Part shown: one piece after another, positions 2,840 through 30,596 of the stretch
Numbering within the stretch: the stretch's first letter is position 1
How the letters are laid out: every line of letters starts with the position of its first letter
Assembly (NCBI RefSeq): GCF_041381155.1
Contig: NC_091135.1
Location: 50,542,086 to 50,606,085 of the forward strand
Direction: 5' to 3'
Length of the DNA stretch: 64,000 nt
Source of the DNA: Argopecten irradians
Lineage: Eukaryota; Mollusca; Bivalvia; Pectinida; Pectinidae
The notes under the pieces: generated by a model
The model's input: only the letters and a program-made list of their open reading frames with translations
Databases searched by the model: none
What the model was told of the DNA's origin: nothing
Position numbers and translations under genes: made by a program

Positions 2840-3722
2840 ACGTGCTAAGGTCAATAACTTCGATCACTTGCCCCTACCTGCTGAGGCCAATAATTTGATC
2901 ACTTGCCCGTTCCTGCTAAGGCCAATAATTTGATCACTTGCCCCTTCCTGCTAAAGCCAATAAATGTGATCACTTGCCCCTTCCTGCTAAGGCCAATGAT
3001 TTGATAACTTAACCCTACCTGCTAAGGCCAATAATTTGATCACTTTCCCCTTCCTGCTAAGGCCAATGATTTGATAACTTAACCCTACCTGCTAAGGCCA
3101 ATAATTTGATCATTTGCCCCTTCCTGCTAAGGTCAGTAATTTGATCACTTGCTCCTTCCTGCTAAGGGCAATAATTTGATCACTTGCTCCTTCCTGCTAA
3201 GGGCAATAATTTGATCACTTGCGCCTACCTGCTAAGGGCAATAATTTGATCACTTGCCCCTACCTGCTAAGGCCAATAATTTGATCACTTGCTCCTTCCT
3301 GCTAAGGGCAATAATTTGATCACTTGCTCCTTCCTGCTAAGGGCAATAATTTGATCACTTGCGCCTACCTGCTAAGGGCAATAATTTGATCACTTGCCCC
3401 TACCTGCTAAGGCCAATAATTTGATCACTTGCCCTTCCTGCTAAGGCCAATAATTTGATAACTTAACCCTACCTGCTAAGGCCAATAATTTGTTCAATTG
3501 CCCCTACCTGCTAAGGCCAATAATTTGATCACTTGCCCCTTCCTGCTAAGGCTAATAATTTGATCATTTGCCCCTACCGGCTAAAGCCAATACTTTGATC
3601 ACTTGCCCCTTCCTTCTAAGGCCAATAATTTGATCAATTGCCCCCACCTGCTAAGGCTAATAATTGGATCACTTGCTCCTTCATACTATTGCCAATAATT
3701 GTGATGACTTCCCCCTACCTGC
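2840..3722. repeat. 35-bp minisatellite, about 25 units
   Basis: Tandem units of 35 bp contain a TTTGATCACTTGCCCC half followed by CCTGCTAAGGCCAATAA. Units vary mainly in the C-run and in the AAGGCC/AAGGGC position. Higher-order structure is visible: 3141-3280 and 3281-3420 are identical four-unit (140 bp) blocks, and 2991-3060 and 3061-3130 are near-identical two-unit (70 bp) blocks. The last units towards 3720 are more diverged, as is usual at array edges. There are no unique spacers, so it is not a CRISPR array. Confidence 0.92.
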
Positions 3723-5567: not shown

Positions 5568-6791
5568 ATGTCTATTTTTAAGGCCTGCCTGAGGTTTGTG
5601 ATGCTGATGTCAATACTTGAATCGGCTCAACTAAACAGACTCCTGCCCCGTCATTGGAATAAAATATGCAAGGTAAAGAGTGGAGTGACATGCCTACATC
5701 CATCCACAAGCAAAAGCATTGTCAGTCGAATGAGGGAGTTACAGCCATCTTGCGTCTCCTGTGAGGTTGGTCCAGATGATATTTGGAACTTTCATGATCT
5801 TCGAAGTTTTCTGCACAAGTCAAATAAGACATTTGCGATGAACGTTCACTGTCACGACGAAGGTAACATTACTCTGCCGTTTCCAATACGTGCAGCTGGT
5901 TTGAAGTATTTTTCTGTCACGAACTGTCTGATAGTCGGTTACATGTCGGAGTATTTTGATCGTACCATCGATGCCATTCCTGATACTTTGATTTACAACA
6001 GTCTTGCAGATTCGACAATATATGTCGATATAATGAAAATGATGGAAGCTTCAAATGGAATGAATAACATGACCAAAGCGGCTAAATGTGGACCTGAGAA
6101 AAGTATCGCCGTGTCCATTGCAAGAAATATTTCCTATGCATTTTCAGACCTTCCTGAATCAACCTTAAATGACATTTTTACCACATTTACTACACGTACG
6201 TCTACAAAATACATCAAAGGCCTTCTTTCCTCTTCCCACACCTGTGCTTACCGAAAGCTTACCGAAATGGACTTAAGCCTATCAAATACCCGTGGGGCAA
6301 ATTTTGACAGTATTCTGGTAAATAATGCGGTTTATCCGGCATTGAAGACATTGGACGTTTCAGATTCTTTACTGAGAAGAATACCAGATAAATTCAATGA
6401 TTGGAGACTGTATTTTCCTCGCCTGACTATGCTTGATCTATCACATAATTATATCCAGAAATTTAGTACAGTGCTTGATTATGGAAATTCGTCTGTTGAA
6501 CAAAGTATCGGAACTATAAATCTTCAGTATAACCTCATATCTACTATAGCAATGGGTGAGTTAAAGTCCTTTACAGGTCACAGGTTCGTAAAAGTAGATA
6601 TTAGAAATAATCCAATCAAGTGTGACTGTAAAATGCTTGACTTCATCGACTTTTTCAGTCAACCAAACGAACTTACAAAAGGCGGTAATGCGAGTCAATA
6701 TAGTTACTTAAGACATCTAAAATGTAAGGAACCGCTTTCATTAAAAGGTCGAACAATTGTAGATTTGAGTCGTGAAGATATTGGTTGTTAG
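5568..6791 (+). CDS. Secreted LRR ectodomain protein (TLR-like paralogue without membrane or TIR segments)
   Basis: 407 residues in one exon. The frame is open from a TTG at 5562, but the first ATG is 5568 and is followed directly by a hydrophobic signal peptide (residues 1-20, cleavage near SA|Q). Twelve cysteines (34, 42, 62, 65, 95, 120, 174, 226, 352, 354, 386, 407) match those of the two downstream paralogues in order and almost exactly in spacing. Residues about 258-345 hold recognisable LRRs (LDLSHNYI, VDIRNNPI); 349-407 form an LRR C-terminal cap (KCDC...LKC...DIGC). Residues 21-255 are cysteine-rich without clear LRRs. Sequons at N100 and N187 are conserved in all three genes. The protein ends on the final cap cysteine, and (TA)n DNA follows the stop, so it should be secreted. 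A role as a soluble pattern-binding or decoy protein is inferred; splicing to a downstream membrane exon cannot be excluded. Confidence 0.9.
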   Translation: MSIFKACLRFVMLMSILESAQLNRLLPRHWNKICKVKSGVTCLHPSTSKSIVSRMRELQPSCVSCEVGPDDIWNFHDLRSFLHKSNKTFAMNVHCHDEGNITLPFPIRAAGLKYFSVTNCLIVGYMSEYFDRTIDAIPDTLIYNSLADSTIYVDIMKMMEASNGMNNMTKAAKCGPEKSIAVSIARNISYAFSDLPESTLNDIFTTFTTRTSTKYIKGLLSSSHTCAYRKLTEMDLSLSNTRGANFDSILVNNAVYPALKTLDVSDSLLRRIPDKFNDWRLYFPRLTMLDLSHNYIQKFSTVLDYGNSSVEQSIGTINLQYNLISTIAMGELKSFTGHRFVKVDIRNNPIKCDCKMLDFIDFFSQPNELTKGGNASQYSYLRHLKCKEPLSLKGRTIVDLSREDIGC

Positions 6792-8297
6792 ATATATATA
6801 TATATACATATAGTTTATTTTCCAAAAAGAGAGAATGAAATAGTTAAAGTAAATATAATACAAATATATGTAATTGTGAGTTATCAAATTGGCTGAGATT
6901 TTGGTGTTGTGATAATTTATTATTTATTGTTTCTCCCAGCTGTTAGATCGATATGACATGCATACCCGTACATAAGTACCAGTAATGATAAATTTTATAT
7001 TCGTAACAGCCCAACTAGTATCGTAATTTTTGGCAGATAACGGAGACTTTAGGAGTATTTTAAATATATGTTTTATATTAAGATCACCTACAGAATCCCT
7101 TGGGTGACTTCCGCGAAATTCTGAAAAAAATATACCTTTTTGAATGATATCGACGAAAATAACTTTTATTTTGTAAAACGAATACTAATTTTGATATACG
7201 GAAAAAAATGAAGTATTTGCTTGACATGCCCACGCAAAATATTTTATGCATAAAATGTTTGTACGTTCATCCCACACGCTGAAAAATGCTGTTCATCATA
7301 CAGAATAGAAAGCATTTCTTGTCCTAAATAAAATATTTGCCTTATCATGTAAAAAAAATCTTTTCAAACTTATCACATTTACAGTAAACGCCGGATAATG
7401 TAAAATATGTACATGCAAGCTTAATACAAATAGGTCGAAAAGTTTGACCTTGGCCCGGCACAATAAAACTATTCTCAGACAGATTTTTTACTCAAGCATA
7501 TGTTTTCACATAGACCTGAGTAAAAATCTGTTTTTATGATGCCAGGCACTGTTATTTTCCCTTCAGTAATAAATTGCAACCGATGCGGTTTAATGAATTT
7601 AGCAGTGAAAATCATTGAAAGGCACATAGCAAAATGTAGGAGGCTTGTTGGTACATTGCTTACACTACATAATTTCTTACACTATGAAAGTTCTTATTTT
7701 TTATGTTTTATATATGTTTAAACGAAAGATACACTAGCATTCATTCAATTATTTAAAATACTTTGCATATGTGATATGGGATTGTAGATCACTGTCTGGT
7801 TGCATCTTTTAATCATGCATATTCATTTTACTGCACGGTAGATGTAAATATCACGAGTGTCAGGAATGTCAGTCTGAACTCGTACTTCACTTTGATATAT
7901 AAAACATATACATTGTAAATCTTATAATTCTCAAAATATTGATGACTTGTGATGCATGCTATATCATAAAAAGGTCGCCTTGCTTCATTAGTGTAGATAT
8001 ACCGTTTACTATAGCTTTAATATCATTATATCAAATCCAATAATTAAGTTAATGTTGAAACGTTGAAAATAATTTTTGAAAAACATGTTTTGGTAATTTT
8101 TATTTGATAAATGAACTTAACATTTGAATTGTGTTATTTATTTTTTTCAATTGAATGAGACATTGACATTCACTCTTATATTTAATCTATGAACATTTTT
8201 CTCCAGCTGGTCTGCCGATAAGGTTGAAGTGCTGTTAAAAATGCACTAGGTTGTCTTGTGGCGGAGGTAATTTATTGTTACGAGAATGACCATGTTG
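6789..8297. other. Intergenic DNA after gene 1, with a short (TA)n run
   Basis: A TA microsatellite starts at the stop codon of gene 1 (about 6790-6806). No remnant of a transmembrane or TIR sequence was found downstream. An AATAAA occurs near 7326, about 540 bp after the stop; no closer canonical poly(A) signal was seen. The rest is AT-rich with no recognised feature. Confidence 0.5.
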
Positions 8298-8522
8298 GTT
8301 TTTGGTTTTTATAAGTTTATCGTCCTATTAAAAGCCATGGTCATTTAAGAACGTGCCATGTATGTTGGAAGAGGAAAGCAGGAGTACCCGGAGAAAATAC
8401 ATCGACAAACGGTCAGTACCTGGCAACTGCCCAACTTGGGATTCGAACTCACGACACAGAGGTGGATGGCTTGTGGTAACATGTCGAGACATCTTAAACA
8501 CTTGGATACCTCGGCCCCATAG
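8298..8522 (-). mobile_element. tRNA-Ser/Leu-derived SINE (family S1 of this window)
   Basis: On the minus strand the element starts with a tRNA-Ser-like head: GGCCGAGGTATCCAAGTG, then TTTAAG, covers the A box, and AGTTCGAATCCC is a near-consensus B box. The body follows, with the words GCCAGGTACTGACCG and TTTTCTCCGGGTACTC. It ends in a tail matching AGGACGTTAAT-type sequence and an A/C-rich run near 8298. Truncated copies are at 16335-16452 and 54035-54140. SINEs are non-coding and are mobilised by a LINE; short ORFs here are accidental. Confidence 0.75.
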
Positions 8523-8768
8523 ACCATGCTGGTACAAGTTTTTGAAATACTACCTGTAATTCAGAATACATCCATTGGTGTAGATTACTTTAAGATGAAA
8601 AGCGTTTTACTTATTGATATAATTCACACGCTCGCGTTCAGCCATACAATAAGATTTTACATATCATAATTGAAAAAAAAATCCGAATTTGAGAATGTAT
8701 GAAGAGTTTTGTAGAAAAAGAAAACAAATTAGTCAATTGTGATAATTAAGTTGTTACTTATCACTTTA
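8523..8768. other. Spacer between SINE and MITE
   Basis: AT-rich spacer between two mobile elements; no independent feature was recognised. Confidence 0.5.
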
Positions 8769-8772
8769 TTAA

Positions 8773-9314
8773 AGGGACAAATCAGTGAGACTAATTCGTT
8801 ACACCACCACGAAGCAAAATATGACATAAATATATTGTTCTACATTCCTTATGAAACATATGACAAGAAATAGTGACAAATTTTAAAACATTGTTAAGTA
8901 TTTTGATTAATACCATTGAAATTCCAAATCGTTGATCAATACGATTAAGCATGTATAACATGTACGCTGTACCCTTCCCCGAGTCAAAGTCGCGCACGTT
9001 AAACAAATGCAATGCATAACCACTGAGGAGTTGATGAAATTATTTTTAGACAAGAACATGTATCTAATAATATTAACACAACTGTAAGAGCGATTTGAGT
9101 AGTTCTTGACAAAAAATTCTTTACTACACAGGCAAGGGTCAGGGTTCGGCATACAAGGCTATGTGTAATGGCGATTGAACATCTCACATACATTTGACTA
9201 CAGTGGGCTTTTCTGACATATCACAGTAAAACCAACTAATCTAATTCCCATTAGAACTGGCTAGCTTCCGAAATATGTGCAAGTTTTAATGTACTCTTAG
9301 ACTGAATTGTCCCT
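8773..9314. mobile_element. TTAA-flanked MITE, piggyBac-type (542 bp)
   Basis: Terminal inverted repeats AGGGACAAATCAGT at 8773-8786 and ACTGAATTGTCCCT at 9301-9314 are flanked by TTAA at 8769-8772 and 9315-9318. TTAA target duplication is the hallmark of piggyBac-superfamily transposition. No transposase frame is present, so it is non-autonomous. A lone terminus of the same type (CACTGAATTGTCCCTTT) occurs near 63097-63114. Confidence 0.75.
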
Positions 9315-9318
9315 TTAA

Positions 9319-11006
9319 GGATGATTATTATTTGTTTGTTGTTTAATGGTGTGTAAACTGTATTTGTATTTATATCTTAAATGACGCACATTAGCAAATA
9401 ACTTAAGGTGAAATATTTGTGCCGGTTTAAACATGTGTACACGTTTATATCTGGTTTGCTGACCCAAATTAACAAAATGAAAAACAATGGAAGATAAATC
9501 ACTCAAAATGTGTCATCTTCAATAAGAACACATACTACATTTTTAGCACAAAGGACAGGTGTGAAGATGTCAACCATTGTGTAACATTTATTTAATTCCA
9601 AACGTGACAAGCTCTTCACAAAACTTTAACAGCTGACAAAGACAGCTTGTATGCATATGCTAATATGGTTCAATGCATATTTATTGACCGCCTCTTACAA
9701 GCAACTTCATCCATTATTTAAATATTCTTCCTAATATACAGAATCTATGGATATTATGAAGGTATATAGCGAATAATATCCGGATATGTTAAAATATGTT
9801 ATCATGTATTTATTATTTTTGCATATTATTAATAAAAATTAAAGAAATTTACCTGGAATCAAATCATACTAATGATACATTACTGCCGACAAATGTAGCA
9901 TCGTATCAATATCTTCGACTTTTCAGGGTTACATAGTACAAAGTGTGTTCAAAAGATATTTGCGTCTGAAAATATTGGTCTGGCCCCGTTTGCACAAAAA
10001 CTTCTTAAATTGGGATTTATCTCAACTTTATATTTGACCTCAATGTTTATCTCAATATTGGCAGACTCCGAAAATGTCATCTTAACTTTGCGAACTTCAC
10101 TGAAATAATCTGAAATCTGAGATGGCAAGTCCCGTCACGATTCGTCGACATTATCGTTGATCTTTTTGTCTAGTAGAGTCACATTTATAAAACAGTGATT
10201 CGACACGGAGTGACGGTACACTCTTTTACATTATTGTGAGGCAAATACACCGTATTAACAGTCTGGATGTTGTGCAATGGGTTGTGGTGTGTGAATGTCT
10301 GCATGCTTTGGGAGGCTGCGGTATAGCGGACATCATTTTATTTTACAGTGTTATCCCACTGACACAAGTCGCCGAAGACAACAGACAAACACACCTACCA
10401 ACCCAGGAGATGTTAGTTAGATAAAAGCCAAGAAGAAAAGAAAATACAAAATCCTAAACTAAGGGATAAATGGGATTTAAGTAATAGTGGGACAGAGAAA
10501 AACATCACAGCATATATGTATAAAATGAGTTGCAATATTCATGTGCATGTATGGAATCCTCTGATTCAATCTGAGTTGCTAACGCGATTTGCATATCTTG
10601 TCTTTAACATATTTATGTTCTGGAATAAGCACTATGATTTAAACCTGGTAAATGCACCAAGGGACATTTACACGTATACGTAAAAGTTATTGTGGTATTG
10701 CCTAGGACGTATATTATCCCGACAGAATATAAATACAATTTTGTATTTCAATTGGTCACCATTGTCCTTGACATTCATTTGACTTTTATAATTAATATGC
10801 GGCTGTCAAATCCATGGACATCGGTTGTAGCCCTTTCACATTTTACTTATATATCCTGCCTACCTGTCTCTGTGGATACAATACTTACTTTCATGGAAAA
10901 TCATGTGTGCGTGTTGTTCCAAGAATTAAGACAAGTCAGTTTACAATAAGATTGTCATTTTCTGTTTTAACAAAAGGCTTGTGGACATGATATAAACGGG
11001 ATCAGA
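9319..11006. other. Intergenic DNA upstream of gene 2, with an old R-family fragment
   Basis: Mostly AT-rich unique DNA. About 10243-10404 is a diverged antisense fragment of the R repeat: TGGGAGGCTGCGGTAT, a C-ACTGACACAAG stretch and GCCGAAGACA words occur in the family order. ATATAAAC at 10989-10996 is TATA-like but only 10 bp before the ATG of gene 2, too close to be its core promoter unless translation starts further in. The sequence GATCAG directly before the ATG would also fit a splice acceptor. Confidence 0.5.
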
Positions 11007-12560
11007 ATGTGGACGGTATATGAATTCTGTTTTATATTTATGACATTTTGGATGATAACTTTATGCGTACCAATGAAAGAAAATGAACCGGAGATGGAGT
11101 TTTCATTGAAAAATCCTAATTCGGCGAAAACTAATTTCTCAATCACACATTCTAGAATTGTTGAAGATGCACAAGCTAATATGATGCCATACCAATGGAG
11201 ACACATCTGCCGAATCAAGCCAGTTTATACATGTATGGATTCATCGATGGTTGACCGTGTTTTTGCTATGATAAGAAATGAATCCCCGATATGCCTCCTA
11301 TGTGATGTCAGGCCGGGGTATGATTGGGATTTTCATGAGTTACGAAGGTTTCTGCACAACCAACGTGATAGTAAGAGCTACGCCATCAAGGTCCGGTGTA
11401 GTAAAGGAGGGAACGTAACACTGCAATGGCCACTTCGGGCAAAAGGACTGAACTATATATCCGTCAGCAAATGCCTGCTTGTGAACTATACTGCAGATTA
11501 CTTTGACAACTCCATCAACAATTTCCCTGATACTTTAGTATACTACAGCATCACAGATTGTGTGATGTATATCGATGTGATAGATTTCATGAACGTCACA
11601 AATAACGTTAATAAAATGTCAAAGGCAGCGAGATGTGGGCCTGAAAAACACCTGGTGTCGTCTATCAATAGGAATGTTTCATACCAGTTCAAGACCATCC
11701 CAGAGAGTCTGATCGAGGAGGTCAGTGCCAATATATCGGGCCATACAGCTCGAAATTATCAGAGAGGAGTGTCAGTGTCTCCAATCACATGTAATTACAC
11801 AAATCTACTACAAATAGACCAAAGTGAAGCGAAACATCTTGGGCCAAAACATGACAGCGTCTTACTTCAGAACTCTGACTACCCCGTGCTACGGTTGTTA
11901 AATCTTTCTAGTACAATGCTGACAGACTTACCGGAACACTTGGACGATTGGCGGTTATATCTTCCCAGACTTAAACTTTTAGACTTAACGCATAATTTTA
12001 TAAAAGAATTCAAATCAGTAATGGATTATGGGATCGGCAGTGAGGATCCGAGTGTTGGTATTATCGATTTGAGATACAATGCGATTACAACAATAACTTT
12101 AAATGAACTCAAAATCTTGCAAAATCACAAATTTGTAAAAGTTGACATACGAAACAATCCTTTTGTTTGTGATTGTGCTATGGCAGAATTTGTACATTAT
12201 TTTCAGCAATCAACATCCCTCGCAAAATTCGGTGTTTCGGGTCAGTACAAATATTTGTTATCTTTAAAATGCGAGAGCCCACAGTCGTTGAAAGGAAGAA
12301 TCATCGCGGATTTAGATCAAAGAGACCTCGGCTGTGCCACATCTCACCCAACTGATAATAAGATGTATCTGATTGTTGTACTGGCTGTAACAACGGGTAT
12401 TCTTGTGATCTACGTATTGCTAACAATGCCTCAACAACTGAAACTGATACTGTCATTAGTGAAGAAAATCAAAAACCTTGGTTTCAAACCCCAATCTCAT
12501 CATGAACAAGTGAGGGAGGCGCACATGATAGCTTTAGAAACTTCGTTAACCTCCAAGTGA
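11007..12560 (+). CDS. Single-pass membrane LRR protein, TLR-like ectodomain without TIR domain
   Basis: 517 residues in one exon. Residues 1-21 are a hydrophobic signal peptide; 22-60 a variable spacer; then the 12-cysteine scaffold at 68, 76, 96, 99, 131, 156, 210, 262, 388, 390, 422 and 443, with one extra cysteine at 185. LRRs lie at about 293-381 (LDLTHNFI, IDLRYNAI, VDIRNNPF) and the C-terminal cap at 383-443. Residues 453-474 form a transmembrane helix, followed by a 43-residue tail rich in lysine (QQLKLILSLVKKIKNLGF) and no TIR box. Sequons N136 and N223 match the paralogues. It is closer to gene 3 than to gene 1 (shared KHDSVLLQNSD and DLRYN). It probably cannot signal through a TIR adaptor by itself; a decoy or co-receptor role is inferred. 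ATTAAA at 12715-12720 may be its poly(A) signal. Confidence 0.9.
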   Translation: MWTVYEFCFIFMTFWMITLCVPMKENEPEMEFSLKNPNSAKTNFSITHSRIVEDAQANMMPYQWRHICRIKPVYTCMDSSMVDRVFAMIRNESPICLLCDVRPGYDWDFHELRRFLHNQRDSKSYAIKVRCSKGGNVTLQWPLRAKGLNYISVSKCLLVNYTADYFDNSINNFPDTLVYYSITDCVMYIDVIDFMNVTNNVNKMSKAARCGPEKHLVSSINRNVSYQFKTIPESLIEEVSANISGHTARNYQRGVSVSPITCNYTNLLQIDQSEAKHLGPKHDSVLLQNSDYPVLRLLNLSSTMLTDLPEHLDDWRLYLPRLKLLDLTHNFIKEFKSVMDYGIGSEDPSVGIIDLRYNAITTITLNELKILQNHKFVKVDIRNNPFVCDCAMAEFVHYFQQSTSLAKFGVSGQYKYLLSLKCESPQSLKGRIIADLDQRDLGCATSHPTDNKMYLIVVLAVTTGILVIYVLLTMPQQLKLILSLVKKIKNLGFKPQSHHEQVREAHMIALETSLTSK

Positions 12561-13160
12561 TTAAACATTTAGTATAGCTCAGAGATTGACCTGTCGCCTG
12601 GAAATCAAAACTGTTCATATTATCTACGACAACAAGGGCTTATTACAGATGCATTATATGCAAGAGTGATCAAGAACTTACCAATGTATTGGCGACATTA
12701 CTTATGGTATCAATATTAAACATCAATATGCTTCGTATAATTCTGCATGTCTTTTGTGTCCGTATTTACCGAGTATATATATGCATGTATTTCTCATGTT
12801 TACCGATATGCCTTGCTATGTTTCTCATTTAAGACATATATAACATCTGAAATATAGGCCCATTTCACATTAGCTTTATGAATATACATTTTTTATTTTG
12901 ATATGTACCTTCATGTGAAACGAACACCAACTTGATACATTTTGTAATACAGCTATTAATATTTAATAAAAATAACAATGGATGGAAGTAACAGACGCAG
13001 GCGTCATACTTTTTATCATTCCCTGACGTCAAGTCATTGTAAATATTTTTGGTATAAATTGGAATTGAACTCAGTATAACTACGGTATAAATAGTTCCAG
13101 GTGACATTACGCTAGTGACGATAGCTAACAATATATAATTATCTAAACAAAGCACGTGCT
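12561..13160. other. 3' region of gene 2 and spacer
   Basis: AT-rich DNA with candidate poly(A) signals ATTAAA (12715-12720) and AATAAA (12965-12970). No TIR-like remnant was found after the gene 2 stop, and no other feature was seen. Confidence 0.5.
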
Positions 13161-13560
13161 AACAAGCGGACAATACAACTGAATTTGGAAATTGTACAGT
13201 TTGTTCATTTGATTAACGTCATATTGACGGCCAGGACACTTAATTTCAGGACAGCCCCCAATGTGTTGTGGTGTGAAGGTGTGTATGTTTTGAGAGTATG
13301 TGGCATAATCATGTTGTGTCTGTATTGTGTTAAGCATTGATGTCAATATTTTTTAATATCATCGGGGTATGAGATAAATTTTATTTACAAACCGTGAGAA
13401 TCCGATGATTCCCACAAACGTTTTATAACAAAATTTATTTCATAACCTGATAAACTTAAAAAATAGTGACATCAATGCTTATAACTAATTTTCCATACTA
13501 CTTGATAAGATAAAACTGCATTTACACCTATGATTCCATTGATTGTACAAGGAATATTTT
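13161..13560 (-). repeat. Composite repeat, copy A: R tail plus 151-bp hairpin
   Basis: The first part (about 13190-13330) is an antisense piece of the R repeat, GATTAACGTCATATTGACGG through TGTTGTGTC. It is interrupted by a foldback at 13331-13481, whose arms begin TAAGCATTGATGTCA and end TGACATCAATGCTTA and pair imperfectly over about 70 bp each. R-like sequence resumes at about 13697-13790 (GGGGAACTCTTGTCC, GCCGCCGAAGACACC). The same composite, with a shortened left hairpin arm, is found at 15429-15782. Confidence 0.65.
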
Positions 13561-14928
13561 TTTCCGAATCAATACGCAAAGTCTATATTTCTATAGTGAC
13601 GTTACGATAACGTCGGGTTTTCGCGCCATTCTTTTTCGCGAAAAAAATCGGTCAATCAGGAGGCCAGTTTTAGTAAACAAAAAATTGATTGTTAGATAAT
13701 AGGGGAACTCTTGTCCTTTTGATAGTGCTATCTCACCAAAGTTTGCCGCCGAAGACACCGACCATGCTCACAGCATTAGTACAGTGCAGTATTCGTGATG
13801 GCAAGGATAGTTATTCTGCAACTACAATCTTGTCTATTTGGCCCCAAAATGATTCTGAACAAGTGTATCGTTTGTTTTTTGTTTTTTATGATATTTAATG
13901 TGTTCTAAGAATCGTCACAGATTTCAACTACTGACTGCAATTCACAGTAGTCAACTGTATTGTTATTCTAAACTGTAACTCTATTCATTTTATTATGTAG
14001 CAATGCAATACATACATTATTGTTAATTAAGAATTCAAGAATTTGGAATGAAGAATATATTCCATAGAATTTATTTTGATTTTACTTTGAATTTATTTTG
14101 GCCTTTTACTTCGAATTATTAATATACTAGCTTTAGACCTTGTTTATCTCATGATGAAGTCAAGACTATTTATTTGGTTTCATTTAATACTCTGAAAGCT
14201 TATCTTCTAATTGTTATATGTACCGTACCAAAACTTTCTCTGTCTTATATAATACGATAATGTTACAAATAAATTTACATATAATGTACACAGATATACA
14301 CAGTTTAAAATCTCTCTATTTCTTCCTTGAATGAAAATTTTGAAAACAACGGATCTTCCTTCTAAAAGCAAGCCTGACAATGGATGTATCACACTGACAT
14401 CTGTATGTATTATTACCTTCCGTTAAGGAAATCAGCCTAATCTTATGTTGGGAAATCCCTGTCTGTAAAACATGTGTATGACAGGCTGATAAACAGTAAT
14501 GCATCATGTTGTAAATAGATTTGTATAACTAAACAGGTAAGGTAGGCTACATTTCAAACAATCCGAACAGACCGTACTGACGCGATGACAGCCGTATATA
14601 AATAACAACTTCACGGTCAGTATATAATAACCCAATGTAGTTTACATTACACGTATTCATGTCCATAGTGGCGTTTATACACAAAACAACTTCTACAGTG
14701 TATGATACAAATAACTTGTTTTGTTGTAACAATGTCCTAAAACCATACATTGCAACATAGTTTGATAAAGTTCAACAAGACTAATCTTTATCCGTTTGAA
14801 AACTAACTGATGTGAATGACAGGTCAATGAAATACGATCAATATTTTCTGACAACTTTATAAACCGTATCACATGAATTGTCTGATTAACACTGAAAACA
14901 CCGATGTGACCGACCAAGCACACCAGCA
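13561..14928. other. Intergenic DNA with R remnant, otherwise nothing recognised
   Basis: GACGTTACGATAACGTCGGG near 13599 and a TTTTCGCGCC stretch also occur, inverted and diverged, near 26318-26360. The R remnant at 13697-13790 continues copy A. From 13800 on the DNA is AT-rich and nothing was recognised. Confidence 0.45.
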
Positions 14929-15100
14929 AATCACATTATACTAACAACAGGCTAACCAGTAGTCCCACTCCTATAATATTGAGTGCTAAGCAGGAACATA
15001 AACTACCGCTTTTATAGACTATGGTGCGTTTCGGCCAGGGGACAGAACCCACAGAGGCGAGCGCTCAACTCCATTCCAAACATGAGGCGGTGTTATTTTT
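14929..15100 (-). repeat. R-family fragment
   Basis: Antisense fragment with family words in order: CACATTATACTAACAACAGG, TTGAGTGCTAAGCAGGA, CATAAACTACCGCTTTTATA, TTTCGGCCAGGGGACAGAAC and ATGAGGCGGTG. Both ends are truncated. Confidence 0.65.
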
Positions 15101-15428
15101 TAAAAATCTAGATTAAGCTATAAAACCTTGAAGTGCTGGATACGACATTGAAATATTCACACAATTATATATACGCCAGAACATTATAGCAGTACCTGTT
15201 TCATTTCAAACTATATTTGTACTTATACACTAAACATTGCAAATACCGCATAATTTTAATGAAGTCATCATAAAGAAACACATATTTCATTTCAATAAAA
15301 GAAATCTGATTCCGTTATCTCACAACTTTGAATTATATGGAAATACTACGATCTAAGTTCTGGCTTTAAATGTTGATTTCTGATTTGAATATTATTTACC
15401 CAGGAACCCTCACAAGAATGGATGGCAT
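15101..15428. other. Intergenic spacer with one arm of a 40-bp direct repeat
   Basis: AT-rich. 15374-15416 (TTTGAATATTATTTACCCAG inside) is repeated in diverged form at 15785-15825, so the composite repeat copy B lies between the two. Confidence 0.5.
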
Positions 15429-15782
15429 AACTAGTGGACAATGTAACTGGATTAAGAAATTTTACAGTTTGATCATTTGATTAACGTCATATTAACGGCC
15501 AGGACATTTAATGTTAGGACGACCCCCAATTGTGTGTATTTTTGGGAGGATGTGGCATATTATGTTGTGTATTTTTTAATTTAATCGGGTTGTGAAATAA
15601 TTTTTGTTTGCAAACTGTGAGAATCCGCTGATTCTCAAAAACGTTTGCTAATAAAATTTATTTCATAATTCGAAAAAAATGAAAAATAGTGACATCATTG
15701 CCTATAATTAATTTTCCAGACTACGTGATAAGGTAAAAATGCATTTACACATATGATTTCATTGATTTTACAAGGAATGTTT
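15429..15782 (-). repeat. Composite repeat, copy B
   Basis: Collinear with 13161-13560: GATTAACGTCATATTAACGG, a shortened hairpin with its loop region GTGAGAATCCGCTGATTCTC, then GTGACATCATTGCC and the same AT-rich downstream segment ending TTACAAGGAAT. It lacks about 28 bp of the left hairpin arm present in copy A. It is flanked by imperfect 40-bp direct repeats (15374-15416 and 15785-15825). Confidence 0.65.
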
Positions 15783-15918
15783 CTGATTTCTTATTTGAAT
15801 ATTATTTACTCAGAAACCCTCAAACATGTAATGATATGCATTCCTTATGTATATGGTTGGTTTATATGGTTGTGTGGAGGGAGTATGTGATGTGTATGGT
15901 GAGGTACATACTGTATGT

Positions 15919-16545
15919 TTGTTTGTTTGTTTGATTAATTTATGTAATATTTAAAGCCAGTTCCATGGAAGGACGGCCTCCCATGTATGCGGTGTGTTGT
16001 GTGTATGAAGTGCATGTATGTGCATAGGGAGACTGCGGTTTATTCATTTTGTGTCTTCTTGTATAGTGGAACTCTTGCCCTTGTTATACATATGTAGTAA
16101 TACGTGTGAATCGGGGAACTGCATTAAAATTGTGCTGTATCGTTATACAATATTGATACTTTTTTTCAGTTTACTGAAACATTCTGCGAAAGACTCCGAA
16201 CAGCATAATCATTGGATTGGTTTAGTTTTTTTTACATGTTCTGTCTTGTTATAGTGCTATCTTACTGAAGCATGCCATCAATACCATCGAACAAGCCAGA
16301 ACCCAGACACTTCTTCGCAAAGGAGACATTAGGATTAAAAAAATGTTTTTTTTTATTAAATTAACACCTTATTAACAGCCAGGGTCATGTAAGGACGTGT
16401 CAGGTTTGTTGATGAAGGCAAGCCGAAGTAACCGGAGAAAAACCAGCGGTCAGTAGCATTAGGAAGAAGAGAGTCAATTAGGAAGAAGAGAAAACTAGAT
16501 CCTTATAGTCACCATTTCCTGATCATGCAATAGGAACAGCGGGTA
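15919..16545 (-). mobile_element. R-family SINE-like copy interrupted by an S1 fragment
   Basis: Antisense copy starting in (GTTT)n at 15919 and running through CCATGGAAGGACGGCCTCCC, GTGTCTTCTTGTATAGTGGA and CTGAAGCATGCC. At about 16335-16452 a 5'-truncated S1 SINE is inserted (TATTAACAGCCAGGGTCATG, GTAACCGGAGAAAAACCAGC). R resumes with GCATTAGGAAGAAGAG and ends at about 16545 with GATCATGCAATAGGAACAGC. CATTAGGA on both sides of the S1 piece may be its target duplication. Confidence 0.65.
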
Positions 16546-19001
16546 CAATTCATAAGAACATTCAACACAATTTGAATTTCTCTGTTTAGCTTCATTCGGG
16601 GCAACTTGTATTTCTGTGAACTTTGCCAGCATAGTGTTTCAGATGAACGTGATGGATTCTCAATAACATCAGTTTGGTTACACATTTGGAATCTAGTTAA
16701 GCTCACCTCGAGACGAGCATGATGGTTTATCTCTATGACCGAAGCTAAAACATAATTTGATTCACACGCACTAATTAGCACAATCGTGTATTGCAGATAA
16801 CATTTAAAACCAAAACAATGAACGCCATAAATATACTTACACCAAGCTTTATTCATTATCGGTATCTTACAACTACGAACTAGTGCCTGCAAAACATACC
16901 TTCTCCCATGAAAAACCACAATTTAATATAAGGTACACTTAATCTTCCCCCTTACCATATTTGCACATATATAGGCCATAGCAATGTCAGGAAGGATCCT
17001 AAGAACACTGAACTGACCGCCTGTGTATAACATACACTTAATGGCACATCAGCACCCCACAGGTAAAGCACGGGTTGGTCTCATATCTCCCCGAAGTAAT
17101 TTTGAGTGAGAGCAATCCTACGACAATCCAGTTGATGCACTGCCATTTTGTGCATATCAGCACTGTGCATGTAAGCCTTGTATCTATATACATGTATCAC
17201 ATTATATAGCTATCCCTTCTATAAATCTGTTGCTGTCCCCTGGGTAAATCATATAACATATGATTTTTCCATGGTGAACAAGAACTCCCAAGTGGTAATT
17301 AGCACCAGTGAAGTTACTAGGTCGTCCCACCTGGTGCATCAGGAGTGAACTAATTTTAGTTTTAAACTAAAATTCCTGTCTCCCCATGGTAAACATGGAT
17401 GAGACCCAACAGAGCCTACCATGTCCCACCCGGTTTTTTTCGGGAGTGGACTAAAATTCCTGTCCCCCATGGATGAGATCTAACCTAGAACTACATTGAA
17501 GTCACTTTTGATTGCATGCGAGTCCGAATACCGAGGAACCTGCCACAAGAGACGGTCTATACCGACTCTCCCAATGCAATCAAGGCCTCCTATTTCACAT
17601 ACCCCTGCCTGAAAGGGCTGAAAACATATTAGCAAAACAAAACACAATGTTTATGTTTCAAGTTCTGCTATCTACATGATAATGAATCAACACATCTTGA
17701 AAAGGTGTAATTATAGATATACATGTATATACCACAAATTCTAAACGTTTCTACAGTATTGACAACTCAATACCAACAAATAAATTACATTAAGACATTC
17801 CCAAAAAACTTACAAAATGAACACCTTGACATACCAGTGACCATTGAAGTTGTAAAAAACATGCAAATTTTACATGCCTTTACTCTAACACTGTGACTGA
17901 TGAAGGTAATGAGTATCGAAACCAGCATCATAAATGAAATCATAATCAGCACTATTTCATTGTTGCCCTGCATGCATGAATATGTGCGACTCATATAATG
18001 AAAGTAGAATGACAGAAAATTGAATCACATAGAATATAACTTAACCTTATAATTTTAATTGACCTTTAATAATTAGTTGTTAAACTGAGAAATTACAATG
18101 CAATTATATACTTTAAATCCCATATGTATATTTATTTCATGTATTTATTGAAGGAAAGAGGAAGTGTGTGCCTTAAATACAGGTAATTATAGCTATTACA
18201 TAATAGAGTTGTAACTGTGTCATTTCCTGAACTGTGAATCAAGGTTAATATATAAGGTCCCATGATGTAACTGTTATAGTTAAAAATTCGAATTTGTCCA
18301 AATAAGTAGAACACAAAATGATTGAGGTGATTATACAATTTACTATCTCGTGCTTGTTGGTAAATCCTTTGCTGTTAAGATTTAAATTTGTTCATGTATG
18401 TACACGTCTGTTATACCTCTACTTATTGTGCTTGTATTATATAAAACACAAGACCTGGCACATAAATGCTCTAGTCAAAGTATTACGTCACATATTGAGA
18501 TCAATGCACATGCATAGCATTTATTCATTTTAAATTCATGTTTTTAAATTATTATTTATAATGGAAATACTTAACTTGCTATCTAAATATGATTATCACT
18601 TTAATATATGATTTTTATCACCTGAGAGTAACTCTGTCCCTGTAAGTGTTTAACACAGCTGTCCTAATATTGAGAATTTATTAATGAGATCTCCAATTGC
18701 TAGAACATAAAATTATTTAATTATTAACGAGGGTTGACTTATATAATTACTTTATTTGGAGTTGAAATGTCTGTTAATGGTGTCATGCATTAGTTTGAAT
18801 GATAGTTGTAATAGGAACACTGTGATTTAATTTTAAAACTATTAATTCTTTACCTGTAGAATTATGTTCCTTAAAACAGCAAATATCAAACTATGAATTC
18901 AATGACTACATCAATATTTAATATTTATAATTCAATGACTACATATATATATTTAATATTTATAATTATAATTATATATCATATATATATCCTACAATTA
19001 A
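16546..19001. other. Intergenic DNA with a small internal duplication
   Basis: A 136-codon minus-strand ORF (16509-16919) has no recognisable domain and overlaps the R copy, so it is not called. 16950-17630 is GC-richer and probably repetitive; within it 17323-17411 and 17422-17473 are partial tandem copies (GTCCCACC, GGAGTG, CTAAAATTCCTGTC, CCATGG in the same order), with a palindrome AATTTTAG...CTAAAATT at 17352-17374. From 17640 to 19001 the DNA is AT-rich, with TA-rich runs near 18930-18990 and no recognised feature. Confidence 0.45.
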
Positions 19002-19338
19002 AGTGAACAGTCGGGCAAGGATGGCTAAAGTCGGTAAAAATGGTGTGAATGTATCTAGTATAATTTCTTATGAAATAGAAAAATAAAATCTCTCGCCAAA
19101 ATTGTATGCGTACGAAGAAATTAATTTAAAGTATAGGAATCCTAAAACGTCCTCCCGGCTGACTATGTCCGTGGTTACATTTACACGTAGTCTCGCTTTC
19201 AATGCTTTCAACTTTCCTTTACTTTAATAGTCAGAACTGGGAAACGTAAACAGAACTAGACAGTCGTTTTGATATGTAATAACTTTTGGAAGGCCAATGA
19301 ACGCATTTAGACTGGTTTTCTTTGCCCGACTATTCACT
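19002..19338. mobile_element. Short MITE with 17-bp terminal inverted repeats, TTAA-like target
   Basis: The left end AGTGAACAGTCGGGCAA (19002-19018) and the inverted right end AGTGAATAGTCGGGCAA (from 19338 leftwards) differ by one base. TTAA precedes the left end (18998-19001) and TGAA, one change from TTAA, follows the right. There is no coding capacity. A piggyBac-type MITE fits best. Confidence 0.65.
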
Positions 19339-20573
19339 TGAATACCAATTTCTTCCTTCGTTTTAACTTTATATTAATAAAGTACTACATTTAAAAATAC
19401 ATGTATATAATAACAATTACAATCTAGCTAGGAATACATGTACCGGTACGTCCATTTCAATTATAGTTTGAATCTGGTAGAACAAGTGAATCAAATTGGT
19501 CAAAATTAATCTCTGCTGAAAATTGGAGAATGTTGTATAAAGTGGTTTCAGGTTATAAGTTGATACTTATTTATATGCATAAATGCATGTTTTGGTAAAG
19601 TCATTCATGAGACTTAGTGTACTTGAAAACATACAAATATTGGCAAATTTAGGCATAAAAAGATAAATGCATAATAATTGTCATATAAAGTAAAGTAAAG
19701 GTATAATTAATACAAATTGTCCCCATGCTGCCTGTCACTGTCATCAAACTTTACCCATAAGTTTGCATCAGTTTTATGATATTTTTTTAATTTGTTGTTG
19801 ATAGTCTATATATTGCTATTGGTATGTATTTACTTAAACATCTTTAATTCCTTCCTGTTCTGGAACATCTAATTACTGGAATACAGTGTATGTATAAATA
19901 TAAAAGTAGGCTCGGCACTACACTAAGTAATTATTATCACCTAACAGCCAGCATATATAGCACTCCCAATGCTAACAAATATATATCCCAGAGTTACCTC
20001 CCTTCTTTTGAATGTTGTTAATATTATTAAATATTTTTACTCGTTGTTTGTATCGATTTAAAGTTGATGAAATATTCCATGGTAGTAATTCAATTACATT
20101 CCTAAATAAGCATTATTTACAAAAAAATCATGTTCTTTTGTTTACGTAAGATACTTCGCCCGAACCAGCGACAGCGTGATCAATCAACTTATCACGATAT
20201 TAAACGATAGATATTATTTAAGTCCATTAAGCCTATATTTTGGTCACATTATCAATTAACCAATTAACATTACCTATTGTATCGACTACCGACGATCATT
20301 GAGAAGTTGTAGATCTCATTGCCGAGGCTATTTCGGGGGTTTGGTGCTTTCACTCTGGCATCCAATTCTCGCCGTAAAAAGTGGCATGTGTCGTCGCCTG
20401 GCAGTTCTGTTGATGCTATATTTTGCTGTGATATTCTTGGCATGCTGAAACATCAACGACAGAAATGTTTTGCTCTCCGATGGAGACAAGATTGCACCAA
20501 AAAAAAATGCACTGCCATAGACTATACAGATGGGCTCCAAAAGTGAAACAAGCATCCAGGTCAAAACGGACAC
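19339..20573. other. Intergenic DNA, nothing certain
   Basis: AT-rich unique DNA. About 20300-20560 has more balanced composition and overlapping 75- to 81-codon ORFs on both strands, none with a recognisable domain; it may be a remnant of something coding but cannot be named. Confidence 0.4.
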
Positions 20574-20577
20574 TTAA

Positions 20578-21589
20578 GGATGTACACCTATGAGAAATTT
20601 TCTTGTATTAAACTTTTTTTCTCATATAGATGTTTGGAAATAGGAGTTCATAACATACAAGAAAATGGAAGAAAAAGCATATGTCGGTGAGCTTGTTTTA
20701 GAGCTATTGTCACTCAAAGATACCAAGTTGACAAAATCTTAGATTTTTTGGGATTTTTGCCGTTTTGACCATATACACAAGAGTTTAAAGCCATAATTTC
20801 CTAATGAGATGTTTGATATGAATGGAAGTTTGAAGAATTTATTTTCCTGAAGTCTTCTTAAAAATATACAAGTTTTGATTAATAAGACTCATATTTTTTC
20901 TCAGAATAACAACATATGCTACCCCAACCCCTTAATTTTGAGCTACAAAATACACCATTTTCAGCCATTTTTGCCAAATTTAACCCTTTATAGAAACCGT
21001 TGTGGTATTAAACTTTTGTTAATATTTTGCATATCAATAGGGAATGGGTTGGTCTTTCTAAATTAGGCAGAAAATGGGGGGGGGGGGGGGGGGTGTCAGT
21101 GTGCTTACTCTTTTGCCTCATTTGAATATGTGTTATTTTTCAGTATTTTAGAGTAAAATATAAAAGTGCTCTAATTACCATTAAATGTAAAAATAAAGTT
21201 ACAAAAGCGTATCACTTCACGCAATAATGCTCAATATTTTAATAACCACGAATCTAGTAAAGATTAACAGCAAAAATTAGCTCGATACAACTAAAAAAGC
21301 TGGTGCAGTGATGATTTAAGTAAAAACAATTTCAGTAAAAAATGGTTAAACTATGGCTCTACTCAAAGAGGAAAAAGACACAATTTCAAAATGGCCGCCA
21401 AATGGGCCATTTCTTAAAATCCCTGTATAAAAAAACATCTACTGAAAATAGAAATGTATTTTTTTGACAAAATTTGCATCTGGCAACTTGCTACAGATAT
21501 TGATAAAATATATTTGAAAATCTCATAACTTCTTTGATCTTTGTCGAAACGAGACTTCAACGGGACTGAAACCTCAAAATAATACATCC
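20578..21589. mobile_element. TTAA-flanked MITE, about 1.0 kb
   Basis: Short inverted ends GGATGTA (20578) and TACATCC (21583-21589) are flanked by perfect TTAA at 20574-20577 and 21590-21593. The interior is AT-rich without a transposase frame and contains a run of 18 G at 21076-21093. It lies about 0.75 kb upstream of gene 3. Confidence 0.6.
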
Positions 21590-21713
21590 TTAAGATACAT
21601 GTAACTGTAATCCTATTAATAAACACTGCAACAATCAGAGTCAGTGAGATGCTTAACTGCATAAAATCTTAAAGGGACTTGTTCTGTGGATATTAAGGAC
21701 GCACCCCCGGTAA

Positions 21714-21748
21714 TCTGGGACAGCTTATCGGCGATCAGCTGTCCCAGA
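21714..21748. other. Perfect 12-bp-stem inverted repeat upstream of gene 3
   Basis: TCTGGGACAGCT at 21714-21725 and AGCTGTCCCAGA at 21737-21748 are exact reverse complements around an 11-nt loop. The hairpin stands out as GC-rich in AT-rich DNA, about 240 bp before the CCAAT box of gene 3. It could be a factor-binding palindrome or part of a further TTAA element; TTAAGGACGCACCCCC directly precedes it. Confidence 0.55.
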
Positions 21749-21984
21749 GACTTGTTTGTTTTTAACCGGCATTTATCATTTATAATTGGATAAATGCATT
21801 TAAGTCATATACTTTAGATAACTGAAGCGATTCAGTATTTGCAGCAATTTCGAAAGAAAAAGACTTTCATTATGACCTTTAGCATTTGAACTTGCTCTAT
21901 CTCTACAAAATGAACAATTTGTTAGCAGTTCAATAGTTTAATGCTTTTGGAGTGCTATGTGGCTTTTCCATTTATGTAAAGTCA

Positions 21985-22022
21985 ACCAATCAGAGCATCT
22001 GTGCAAACGTGATATTATAAAT
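21985..22022 (+). promoter_or_regulatory. Candidate CCAAT box and TATA box of gene 3
   Basis: ACCAATCAGA at 21985-21994 is a full NF-Y-type CCAAT box, and TATTATAAAT at 22013-22022 is a good TATA element 18 bp further on. Transcription would start near 22045, giving a 5' leader of about 300 nt to the preferred ATG at 22342. That leader would contain the ATG at 22147, unless an intron removes it. Confidence 0.5.
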
Positions 22023-22341
22023 CCTGCATATGACCTGCACTTACTGCAGGACTTGTGACAAGCACATTGGAACCTTCCGTATCGCCGGGACGTTTATGTT
22101 GTATGTTTTATCTGATTAACAAGGAAAGGGTCTGTAGGTTACCAGTATGATGTGCTTGTTACTTGAGAAAACGATCAAAGTGAACATACGCAGTCAACCG
22201 CGGTTTGTAATCCATCATGTTTGTCTGCGCGTGCGTACAGGATGCCAAAATATTTCTTATAAAATATCTGTCTTCTCTAAACACTCAAGATGTGTAGTTT
22301 ATATTTCTAGACCTGATAGATTGTTGAAATCAACGTTCAGT

Positions 22342-24363
22342 ATGCTGTTATCTTCCCTTTTGGTGATGATATCAGCTGCATTTAACACGATTAACTCCAC
22401 GAATATATTTCACAACAATTCAGAGCTTTCATTTGGATTTGATAACAGTATTAACATTACAGTAGATGGTATAACATTCATGGGTACTCAACCACAGGAT
22501 GTATCCAGTTCTCTGCCACCGGAATGGTCCAGAATCTGCAGAATTCAACCAGGATTAGGATGTATTCATCCGTCTACCAAGCAAATTGTAGTAGATACCC
22601 TGGCAAAAGTACATCCAACTTGTATACTGTGCTCCGTCAGACGAGGGGAGGTATTGAGATTTGAAAGCTTAAGACATATTTTGCAAATTTCTGTGGTAAG
22701 GAAACATTATGCAGTGACGATTGGATGTGCGCCCGGAGGGAACATCACACTTCCGTACCCAATGCGTGCTGTCGGACTAAAGTATATACACGTTCAAGAC
22801 TGCTTGATCCGGGACTCTATGGCGGACTATTTCAACACCGATATCAATATGATTCCAGACACATTGGTATATTACGCCATAATAGACTCTAGATTCTACG
22901 TCGATTCATCTGAGTTTGCAGTTACGGTACAAAACCTTCAATTCATGACGAAAGCGGCGAAATGCGGTCCAGAGAAAGAGCTAATGGTGGCGATCAGTAG
23001 AAATATTTCTTATGTATTCAGCAAGATTGTTTTACCCCGCGTTGAACGAATGAAAGGCGAGGAAACGCCTAATGCAGCACGTGCATTCTATCGCGGTGTA
23101 TCGAGAGCTGCGTTCACATGTAATTATACAAAACTAATCGAACTTGACCGAAGTTTTGCGAGGAGCCTTGGTTCGAAGCATGATAGTGTCCTTTTGCAAA
23201 ACTCAGATTTTCCAGCATTGCTTGTGTTTAATTTATCATATTCACTATTGCGGGAAGTACCAGGAAAATTCGATGACTGGCGACTATATTTCCCGCGTAT
23301 GAAAATCATGGATTTAACACATAACAGGATAAATGATTTCAAAAGTGTACTAGACTATGGGACGAAGACTGAGGACCCTAGCATGGGTACACTAGATCTG
23401 CGCTATAACAATATAACTACAATAACGTTGAAGCAGCTCCGTGCATTACAACATCACAAGTATGTGAAGGTTGACATCCGGAACAACCCATTTGTATGTG
23501 ATTGTGGTATGAAGGACTTCGTCGAGTTTTTTCATCACGACAACAACTTAACAATCGATACTGCAATAGGTCAGTATATGTATTTGCAAGATCTTAAATG
23601 CCACAAACCAGACAAATTGAAAGGTCGTAAAATTGCTGGCGTCACCATCAGAGAGCTAGGCTGTGAACTAGAAACGACAACATTACTCGCCGCACCAATC
23701 ATTGTATTGTGTTTAATTGTCGCGATTCTAATTGTTTTTATTATCATCATGATAAAATACAGAAAGGAAATAGTCATTCTGGCTTTTACTAGATTAAACA
23801 TAATACTCCCCTGCCAACGATTTGAAGACAATGCCGGTAAGAAATTTGACGCATTTGTCTCCTACAGTCAGCACGACTCTAATTGGGTATTGAATACATT
23901 GGTTCCGGGTTTAGAACGCCCTAACGGGCTTGATCCATTTAAACTTTGTCTTCATCAACGAGACTTTGCTGTTGGAACTGCTATTGCAGAAAATATCGTT
24001 AACAGCGTGGAGGCTAGTCGTCATACGATTCTCGTTATTTCACGGAAGTTCCTGGAGAGTGAATGGTGTTTGATGGAATTTCGAACGGCATTTCACCAAA
24101 GTTTGTTAGAAAAAAAGAAACATCTGATACTCGTTACTGTAGAACAGTTGGCACCAGAAGAACTTGATGCAGATTTGAAGCGTTGTATGCAGACATTGAC
24201 CTATGTTCATATCAATGACAGGCTTTTTTGGGACAAAATTATATTTTCATTGTCGAATAAAAGGAAAAGGAACAAAGATGGCCATTTTTTCGACAACTTG
24301 AAGCATTGTTTCCGGCATCGACAACACCACCACGCCAACGGCAATAACAATCAGGCTAAATGA
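22342..24363 (+). CDS. Toll-like receptor: short LRR ectodomain, transmembrane helix, cytoplasmic TIR domain
   Basis: 673 residues from ATG 22342, chosen because a signal peptide (MLLSSLLVMISAAF) starts there. The frame is open from ATG 22147, which would add 65 residues that do not look like a signal; CGTTCAG before 22341 could be a splice acceptor. Cysteines 66, 74, 94, 97, 129, 154, 208, 260, 386, 388, 420 and 441 repeat the scaffold of the two paralogues. LRRs are at about 290-380, the C-terminal cap at 382-441, the transmembrane helix at 446-471. The TIR domain (about 501-640) has box 1 FDAFVSY, box 2 RDFAVG, WC..E at 575-579 and box 3 FW at 629-630; valine replaces the vertebrate BB-loop proline, as in Drosophila Toll. 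A basic, His-rich tail ends the protein. By family it should dimerise on ligand and recruit TIR adaptors such as MyD88 in innate immunity; the ligand is unknown. The ectodomain is much shorter than in typical TLRs. Confidence 0.93.
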   Translation: MLLSSLLVMISAAFNTINSTNIFHNNSELSFGFDNSINITVDGITFMGTQPQDVSSSLPPEWSRICRIQPGLGCIHPSTKQIVVDTLAKVHPTCILCSVRRGEVLRFESLRHILQISVVRKHYAVTIGCAPGGNITLPYPMRAVGLKYIHVQDCLIRDSMADYFNTDINMIPDTLVYYAIIDSRFYVDSSEFAVTVQNLQFMTKAAKCGPEKELMVAISRNISYVFSKIVLPRVERMKGEETPNAARAFYRGVSRAAFTCNYTKLIELDRSFARSLGSKHDSVLLQNSDFPALLVFNLSYSLLREVPGKFDDWRLYFPRMKIMDLTHNRINDFKSVLDYGTKTEDPSMGTLDLRYNNITTITLKQLRALQHHKYVKVDIRNNPFVCDCGMKDFVEFFHHDNNLTIDTAIGQYMYLQDLKCHKPDKLKGRKIAGVTIRELGCELETTTLLAAPIIVLCLIVAILIVFIIIMIKYRKEIVILAFTRLNIILPCQRFEDNAGKKFDAFVSYSQHDSNWVLNTLVPGLERPNGLDPFKLCLHQRDFAVGTAIAENIVNSVEASRHTILVISRKFLESEWCLMEFRTAFHQSLLEKKKHLILVTVEQLAPEELDADLKRCMQTLTYVHINDRLFWDKIIFSLSNKRKRNKDGHFFDNLKHCFRHRQHHHANGNNNQAK

Positions 24364-30164: not shown

Positions 30165-30596
30165 AAAGACCAAGGATTATAATTGCATTTTGTAGTATCC
30201 ATGTAGTAAAAACCAAGGATCATAATTGTATTTTGTAGTATCCATGTAGTAAAAACAAAGGATCATAATTGTATGTAGTAGTATCCATGTAGTAAAAACC
30301 AAGGATTATAATTGTATTTTGTAGTATCCATGTAGTAAAAACCAAGGATTATAATTGCATTTTGTAGTATCCATGTTGTAAAAACCAAGGATTATAATTG
30401 TATGAAGTAGTATCCATGTAGTAAAAACCAAGGATTATAATTGCATTTTGTAGTATCCATGTAGTAAAAACCAAGGATCATAATTGTATGTAGTAGTATC
30501 CATGTAGTAAAAACCAAGGATTATAATTGTATTTTGTAGTATCCATGAAGTAAAAACCAAGGATTATAATTTCATGTAGTAGTATCCATGTAGTAA
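30165..30596. repeat. 43-bp minisatellite, left part (about 10 units)
   Basis: 43-bp units contain AACCAAGGATTATAATTG, then TATGTAGTAG or TATTTTGTAG, then TATCCATGTAGTAAA. The array stops abruptly inside a unit at 30596, where a 3.9-kb mobile element begins, and resumes at 34511. Confidence 0.95.

Follow-up and report, generated by a model that had tools for sequence, protein, structure and literature searches.

A tandem trio of Toll-like receptor paralogues with graded architecture in the genome of the bivalve Argopecten irradians

Why should a genome carry, beside a gene for a complete Toll-like receptor (TLR), two further genes for the same type of ectodomain that lack the TIR domain? This question is raised by a locus on contig C2 (NC_091135.1) of the 846-Mb Argopecten irradians assembly GCF_041381155.1. 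The window, by which we mean the whole stretch of 64,000 nucleotides that was analysed (C2:50542086-50606085), contains 0 N, and its plus strand holds three ATG-to-stop frames inside 19 kb. All three are paralogues, with similarities beyond chance (expectation values, E, from 2.6e-130 to 9.2e-110). A sequence-only reading of the window had placed three genes on one strand within 19 kb here; all three lie where it put them and all are open. The features of the trio, in window positions, are as follows.

5568..6791, plus strand: gene 1, 407 residues; signal-like start and ectodomain, no helix, no TIR domain
5640..6788, plus strand: gene 1 ectodomain stretch used as alignment input
11007..12560, plus strand: gene 2, 517 residues; ectodomain, membrane helix and short tail, no TIR domain
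11181..12335, plus strand: gene 2 ectodomain stretch used as alignment input
12369..12425, plus strand: gene 2 predicted membrane helix, residues 455-473 (Kyte-Doolittle 19-mer mean 2.71)
12426..12557, plus strand: gene 2 short cytoplasmic tail, residues 474-517 (about 44 residues)
22147..24363, plus strand: gene 3 frame, 738 residues from the first ATG; ectodomain, helix and TIR domain
22510..23664, plus strand: gene 3 ectodomain stretch used as alignment input
23698..23754, plus strand: gene 3 predicted membrane helix, residues 518-536 (Kyte-Doolittle 19-mer mean 3.87)
23845..24159, plus strand: gene 3 TIR domain, residues 567-671 (Pfam PF01582, 65.9 bits)
23959..23976, plus strand: gene 3 BB-loop stretch RDFAVG, with Val at the place of the human TLR2 Pro

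The graded architecture that had been proposed for the trio is borne out. Gene 1 ends after the ectodomain, its TAG stop codon standing directly 3' of the last ectodomain cysteine, and none of its 19-residue segments has a Kyte-Doolittle mean of 1.5 or more; since it has neither helix nor TIR domain, its product should be secreted. Gene 2 adds a helix and a tail, and gene 3 a helix and the only Pfam TIR match of the trio. Leucine-rich repeats (LRRs), a membrane helix and a TIR domain are thus joined in the single protein of gene 3, which is a TLR by the criteria of PMC8609888 (at least one LRR together with helix and TIR), whereas genes 1 and 2, being without TIR, are filed as LRR-only, TLR-like proteins and not as TLRs. 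Translation of gene 3 is likelier to start at the in-frame ATG at 22342 (Met66) than at the first ATG, because a signal-like stretch opens there and nothing in genes 1 and 2 corresponds to the preceding 65 residues. The description of the genes as intronless holds for the coding frames, although acceptor-like sites in the 500 bases upstream of genes 1 and 3 allow introns in the 5' untranslated regions. Polyadenylation-type hexamers follow each gene, from +536 for gene 1, at +155 (ATTAAA) and +405 (AATAAA) for gene 2 and from +74 for gene 3.

The three genes had also been said to share one ectodomain. They do so in the sense of homology, but the copies are not near-identical: BLASTP identities are 44.7% (gene 1 versus 2), 43.5% (1 versus 3) and 47.6% (2 versus 3), and the codon alignment over 383-385 codons gives 0.446, 0.436 and 0.501 for the same pairs. 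Their relatives were sought in the whole genome, in searches that score the best candidates only and ignore introns. Twelve matches were obtained with the gene 2 protein, the trio included. Four further loci (L012, L013, L014 and L015) are each an open frame with this ectodomain, a helix and a TIR domain, and the intact loci with this ectodomain were counted as seven, five with TIR and two without (genes 1 and 2). Beyond the trio the next relatives in the genome are at most 29% identical. The four weaker matches are LRR parts of other proteins: TIR matches accompany two of these, L018 and L019, but not L017 and L020, which look different. Searches with gene 1 (14 matches), L012 (8) and L013 (20) added only pieces of known matches, the extra matches being otherwise fragments of broken copies on contig C10 and more distant LRR proteins. 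The broken copies, L016, which was also among the twelve matches to gene 2, and C10:16.149-16.155 Mb, are near-identical to the intact TLR L013 and lie about 39-44 kb from it; they are either pseudogenes of recent origin or duplicates created by the assembly.

Maximum-likelihood analysis of the seven ectodomains placed the trio in one clade (support 95/99) with the TIR-bearing L012 as its sister (99/98). The tree program issued a long-branch warning for this data set; when L015, the longest row, was left out, support rose to 99/99 for the trio and 100/99 for L012 plus the trio. The order inside the trio is without support (45/4; in the approximately unbiased test the two alternative groupings had p-AU values of 0.399 and 0.400), and two histories fit: either the TIR domain was lost once and the helix afterwards, or loss happened twice, separately. 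Because all four relatives outside the trio carry a TIR domain, parsimony favours its loss from genes 1 and 2, and such a loss is what most likely happened.

The fold of the shared ectodomain is recognizable in its C-terminal part. Cysteines of the cap align in 7/7 members, and in a profile search with all seven, Toll and TLR structures of the PDB were matched over their last LRRs and cysteine cap (7b1b, E 1.7e-24; 4lxr, 9.3e-23; TLR3 chains, E from 6.5e-21); the top score in that database went to the TIR domain-containing protein 8suf (E 1.8e-25). Searched singly against Pfam, genes 1-3 gave LRRs below the cut-off only (for gene 3, LRR_8 with 21.2 versus 27 bits), and a cap domain, LRRCT, was matched in gene 2 alone, likewise below the cut-off (14.0 versus 20 bits). 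The N-terminal half is roughly 200 residues long and has as many as eight conserved cysteines, and the search matched no named domain to it.

Are the two short copies maintained genes? Nei-Gojobori (NG86) estimates within the trio gave a proportion of synonymous differences (pS) of 0.76-0.80, which is saturated, and a nonsynonymous distance (dN) of 0.45-0.52. When neutral decay of the 385-codon gene 3 ectodomain was simulated at 0.25 substitutions per site, the sequences acquired a mean of 11.4 stops and 0/500 stayed open. The five TIR-bearing members agree without exception at 24 columns, of which 22 are kept in gene 1 and 22 in gene 2; under a looser definition (same residue in 4/5 of these members) gene 1 keeps 38/45 and gene 2 40/45. 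The trio has 12 cysteine columns, and none of its three genes departs from cysteine at any of them. Tajima tests against L012 revealed no acceleration (chi2 0.67 for gene 1 versus 3, 0.33 for gene 2 versus 3 and 0.06 for the third comparison); these constraint and rate tests span the whole time since duplication. With saturated pS, open frames, kept cysteines and core, and rates equal to that of gene 3, genes 1 and 2 do not look like pseudogenes, and the fold of their ectodomains is, by these measures, under constraint. The ectodomains of the TIR-less copies are accordingly as conserved as that of the TIR-bearing copy.

Nor is a decayed TIR domain found beside them. No TIR remnant was detected in the window plus 30 kb of flank, where the best non-self match to the helix-TIR part of gene 3 scored 23.5 bits (E 0.49). 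As a control, parts of the ectodomains of L001 and L002, two further TLRs, were used as queries at E 1e-10 and gave 33 and 9 match rows. In a by-eye comparison 41/42 rows (rows, not genes) lay no more than about 2 kb from a TIR match on their contig, in some cases in broken frames (for example at C2:70.516, C4:27.784 and C4:27.884 Mb). The exception, L046 (692-3073), is a frame of 674 residues on C11 in which the start of the TIR domain is cut by a stop and the next TIR-like piece stands in another frame. Genes 1 and 2 look different from it, for they have clean ends and no remnant. One of the control loci, L002, forms with L005 (C2:45.017-45.023 Mb) a tandem pair of TLR frames, 99% identical over 281 ectodomain residues, that was either duplicated very recently or doubled in the assembly.

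These results suggest the following history. A TLR gene with a short ectodomain (an N-terminal cysteine-rich part, few LRRs and a C-terminal cysteine cap), a helix and a TIR domain would have been duplicated in tandem. Gene 3 would have retained the whole receptor, gene 2 would have kept the anchor and lost the TIR domain, and gene 1 would have lost both, in one or two loss events followed by constraint on the ectodomain fold of both short genes. The products may then form a set in which gene 3 alone could signal through a TIR domain, gene 2, a putative non-signalling membrane partner, would bind and pair at the membrane, and gene 1, a putative soluble pattern-binding protein, would only bind. 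Through a common ligand or through pairing of ectodomains genes 1 and 2 might tune gene 3 in either direction, damping it as decoy and dead partner or delivering ligand to it. The structural and evolutionary part of this account, that is the anatomy, the homology, the polarity by parsimony and the constraint, we hold with considerable confidence on the sequence evidence. That the short copies modulate gene 3, whichever the direction, we judge from analogy to be an evenly balanced proposition, and the explanation as a whole, from structure through to modulation, may equally well be right or wrong. It is in any case plausible that gene 3 would serve as the receptor, gene 2 as a co-receptor or a decoy at the membrane, and gene 1 as a soluble decoy.

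Several observations weigh against this account. The signal-peptide hydropathy of gene 1 (best 9-mer 2.07) is the weakest among the seven members, the other six having 2.18-2.90. The ectodomains, at 43-50% identity, may bind different ligands. Two structure models were poor (mean pLDDT, the predicted local distance difference test, 52.5 and 50.7) and the N-terminal half was not placed in them. Comparison of kappaB-like and TATA-like sites in the upstream regions of the trio revealed no clear common signal: kappaB-like sites are present upstream of gene 1 only (2 kb searched) and TATA-like sites upstream of genes 2 and 3 only (600 bases searched), both being counts without a chance expectation, and co-induction of the trio is not favoured by these regions. 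The remnant search, too, has a limited reach. When the L012 tail, taken as a proxy, was decayed and searched with the gene 3 tail, it was found in 60/60 trials at 0.1 substitutions per site, 53/60 at 0.2 and 30/60 at 0.3, and in only 4/60 at 0.4, 2/60 at 0.5 and none at 0.7 and 1.0. The lack of remnants therefore bounds the time of loss only for decay in place; loss by deletion is undatable.

A further point against it concerns the output of gene 3 itself, the signalling of which is not certain given a BB loop without proline. Of the TIR domains with solved structures, those of TLR2, TLR1, TLR10 and TLR6 are closest to it in sequence (E 2.2e-23 to 3.7e-22). The BB-loop proline is present in 12 of the 14 distinct TIR places matched by pattern among the loci collected, a count that left out the TIR domains or pieces of L016, L019 and L046 and most of the 90 TIR matches in the genome; the exceptions are gene 3, with Val, and L012, its sister, with Ala. 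According to one account this proline occurs in human TLRs except TLR3, which uses TRIF, and is typical rather than defining (PMC3634009). Since TLR2 with the P681A substitution is described there as keeping part of its responses (PMC3634009), signalling by gene 3 is still possible. The change falls in the clade that holds the trio, and signalling in this clade may for this reason have shifted before or during the loss of the TIR domain in the copies. A bolder version, in which stepwise loss of the output module left an invertebrate locus with a standing, co-regulated three-tier set, its receptor signalling with a proline-less BB loop as in TLR3 and perhaps without the usual MyD88 contact, is offered very tentatively and is rather improbable.

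Genes 1 and 2 might instead be independent pattern-binding proteins, a soluble opsonin or agglutinin and a membrane LRR receptor for adhesion or uptake, unrelated to the ligand or signalling of gene 3. The identity of 43-50% and the saturated synonymous sites, which imply long divergence, and the upstream regions without a clear common signal agree with this, and LRR-only immune proteins are described as a recognised class (PMC10178686). However, tandem linkage and equal constraint on the core and the cysteines are no less compatible with a common function. We consider such independence possible though unlikely, and favour modulation of gene 3 over it because of the fish TLR5M/TLR5S precedent considered below. 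In another arrangement gene 2, having retained ectodomain and helix, would act by associating with a TIR protein, as in Hydra (PMC8609888); TIR matches of the genome that lie in short open frames are candidate TIR-only genes for such a role. A complete TIR-bearing paralogue is nevertheless available 9.6 kb away, and gene 1 would be left unexplained, which makes this arrangement improbable.

Genes 1 and 2 could also be recent truncations on the way to becoming pseudogenes, or their ends could be assembly errors. Broken copies of other TLRs (L016 and L046) do occur in the same assembly, and a loss by deletion has no datable age, but the open frames, the saturated pS, the kept core and cysteines and the unaccelerated rates, together with the want of a nearby TIR remnant in any frame, unlike at L016 and L046, make this very improbable. 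Least probable of all, to the point of being hardly credible, is that the gene models are incomplete and that genes 1 and 2 are spliced to helix or TIR exons, for instance those of gene 3: no splice donor with at least 8/9 consensus bases occurs in the three frames plus 100 bases (a weak point, because shuffled sequences also yield just 0.42-0.68 on average), gene 3 and the relatives hold ectodomain and TIR domain in a single frame, and the next TIR match on the contig, gene 3 aside, is about 1.9 Mb off.

The window also holds repeats. Between genes 2 and 3, at 13160-13559 and 15428-15782, a short element with an internal palindrome is present in two copies that are 76% alike, perhaps a non-autonomous transposon. 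The long minus-strand open reading frames at 44154-50067 are due to a 42-bp minisatellite of about 141 copies. Five other tandem arrays were recorded.

2839-3722: tandem array, 35 bp x 25
30163-30596: tandem array, 43 bp x 10
31080-34395: tandem array, 145 bp x 23
34508-35461: tandem array x 22, with a 43-bp unit of the same kind as at 30163-30596
40006-41606: tandem array, 324 bp x 5

Soluble and TIR-less forms of TLRs are already known in vertebrates. RP105 (CD180), a relative of TLR4 that works with MD-1, has a TLR-type ectodomain and a helix and is without a TIR domain. Gene 2 resembles it in having a TLR-type ectodomain, a helix and a short tail without TIR, and CD180 chains match the family profile across the LRRs and the cap (3b2d, 45.2 bits); the tie between the two is LRR similarity and nothing more. 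In Hydra an LRR-only protein without TIR is reported to take part in Toll-type signalling (PMC8609888), but there LRR-only proteins are paired with TIR-only proteins, whereas the neighbour of gene 2 is a full TLR.

Among molluscs, the oyster TLR classes sP, sPP and Ls are described as short TLRs, one class having the C-terminal cap only and some being tandem-linked (PMC4346834). They share with the trio the short TLR type; however, these classes were drawn on TIR trees, according to the same description, so that TIR-less copies fall outside them (PMC4346834). A review mentions that oyster TLR homologues, some of them without transmembrane domains, are induced by ostreid herpesvirus 1 (OsHV-1) (PMC12521104). 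Like gene 1, these are molluscan TLR-like products without an anchor, and by analogy they keep open the possibility that anchor-less products are active in molluscan immunity. The Ciona 'TLR3, 6 and 7' are, in the account consulted, TIR-less LRR proteins formerly called TLRs, and for CiTLR7 their authors are reported to have found no phylogenetic evidence of an origin by duplication from other CiTLRs (PMC12816324); the trio differs in that descent inside a TIR-bearing clade is supported. A wide TLR survey required a TIR domain by its criteria (PMC8609888), and receptor-derived TIR-less paralogues were thereby excluded by construction. No three-tier tandem set was met with for any invertebrate in the literature searched, which takes in few subscription journals.

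The closest parallel comes from fish. In teleosts and lamprey TLR5S and TLR5M are described as the products of different genes (PMC12816324), and in trout both products are reported to bind flagellin, the soluble form being argued to provide negative as well as positive feedback (PMC6333709). As in the locus described here, a TIR-bearing membrane TLR is accompanied by a separately encoded soluble paralogue that lacks helix and TIR domain; the differences are that the fish genes are vertebrate TLR5 and form two tiers, not three. Gene 1 is of the TLR5S kind in being a separate gene and a paralogue of a TIR-bearing receptor without helix and TIR, but it is not a TLR5. A linked and constrained trio of this kind would provide a test in nature of the idea that, outside vertebrates too, TLR forms without signalling capacity, soluble or bound to the membrane, have arisen more than once as regulators. 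It would also allow the debate over TLR5S in fish, on damping versus boosting of the response by the soluble form, to be taken up in an invertebrate.

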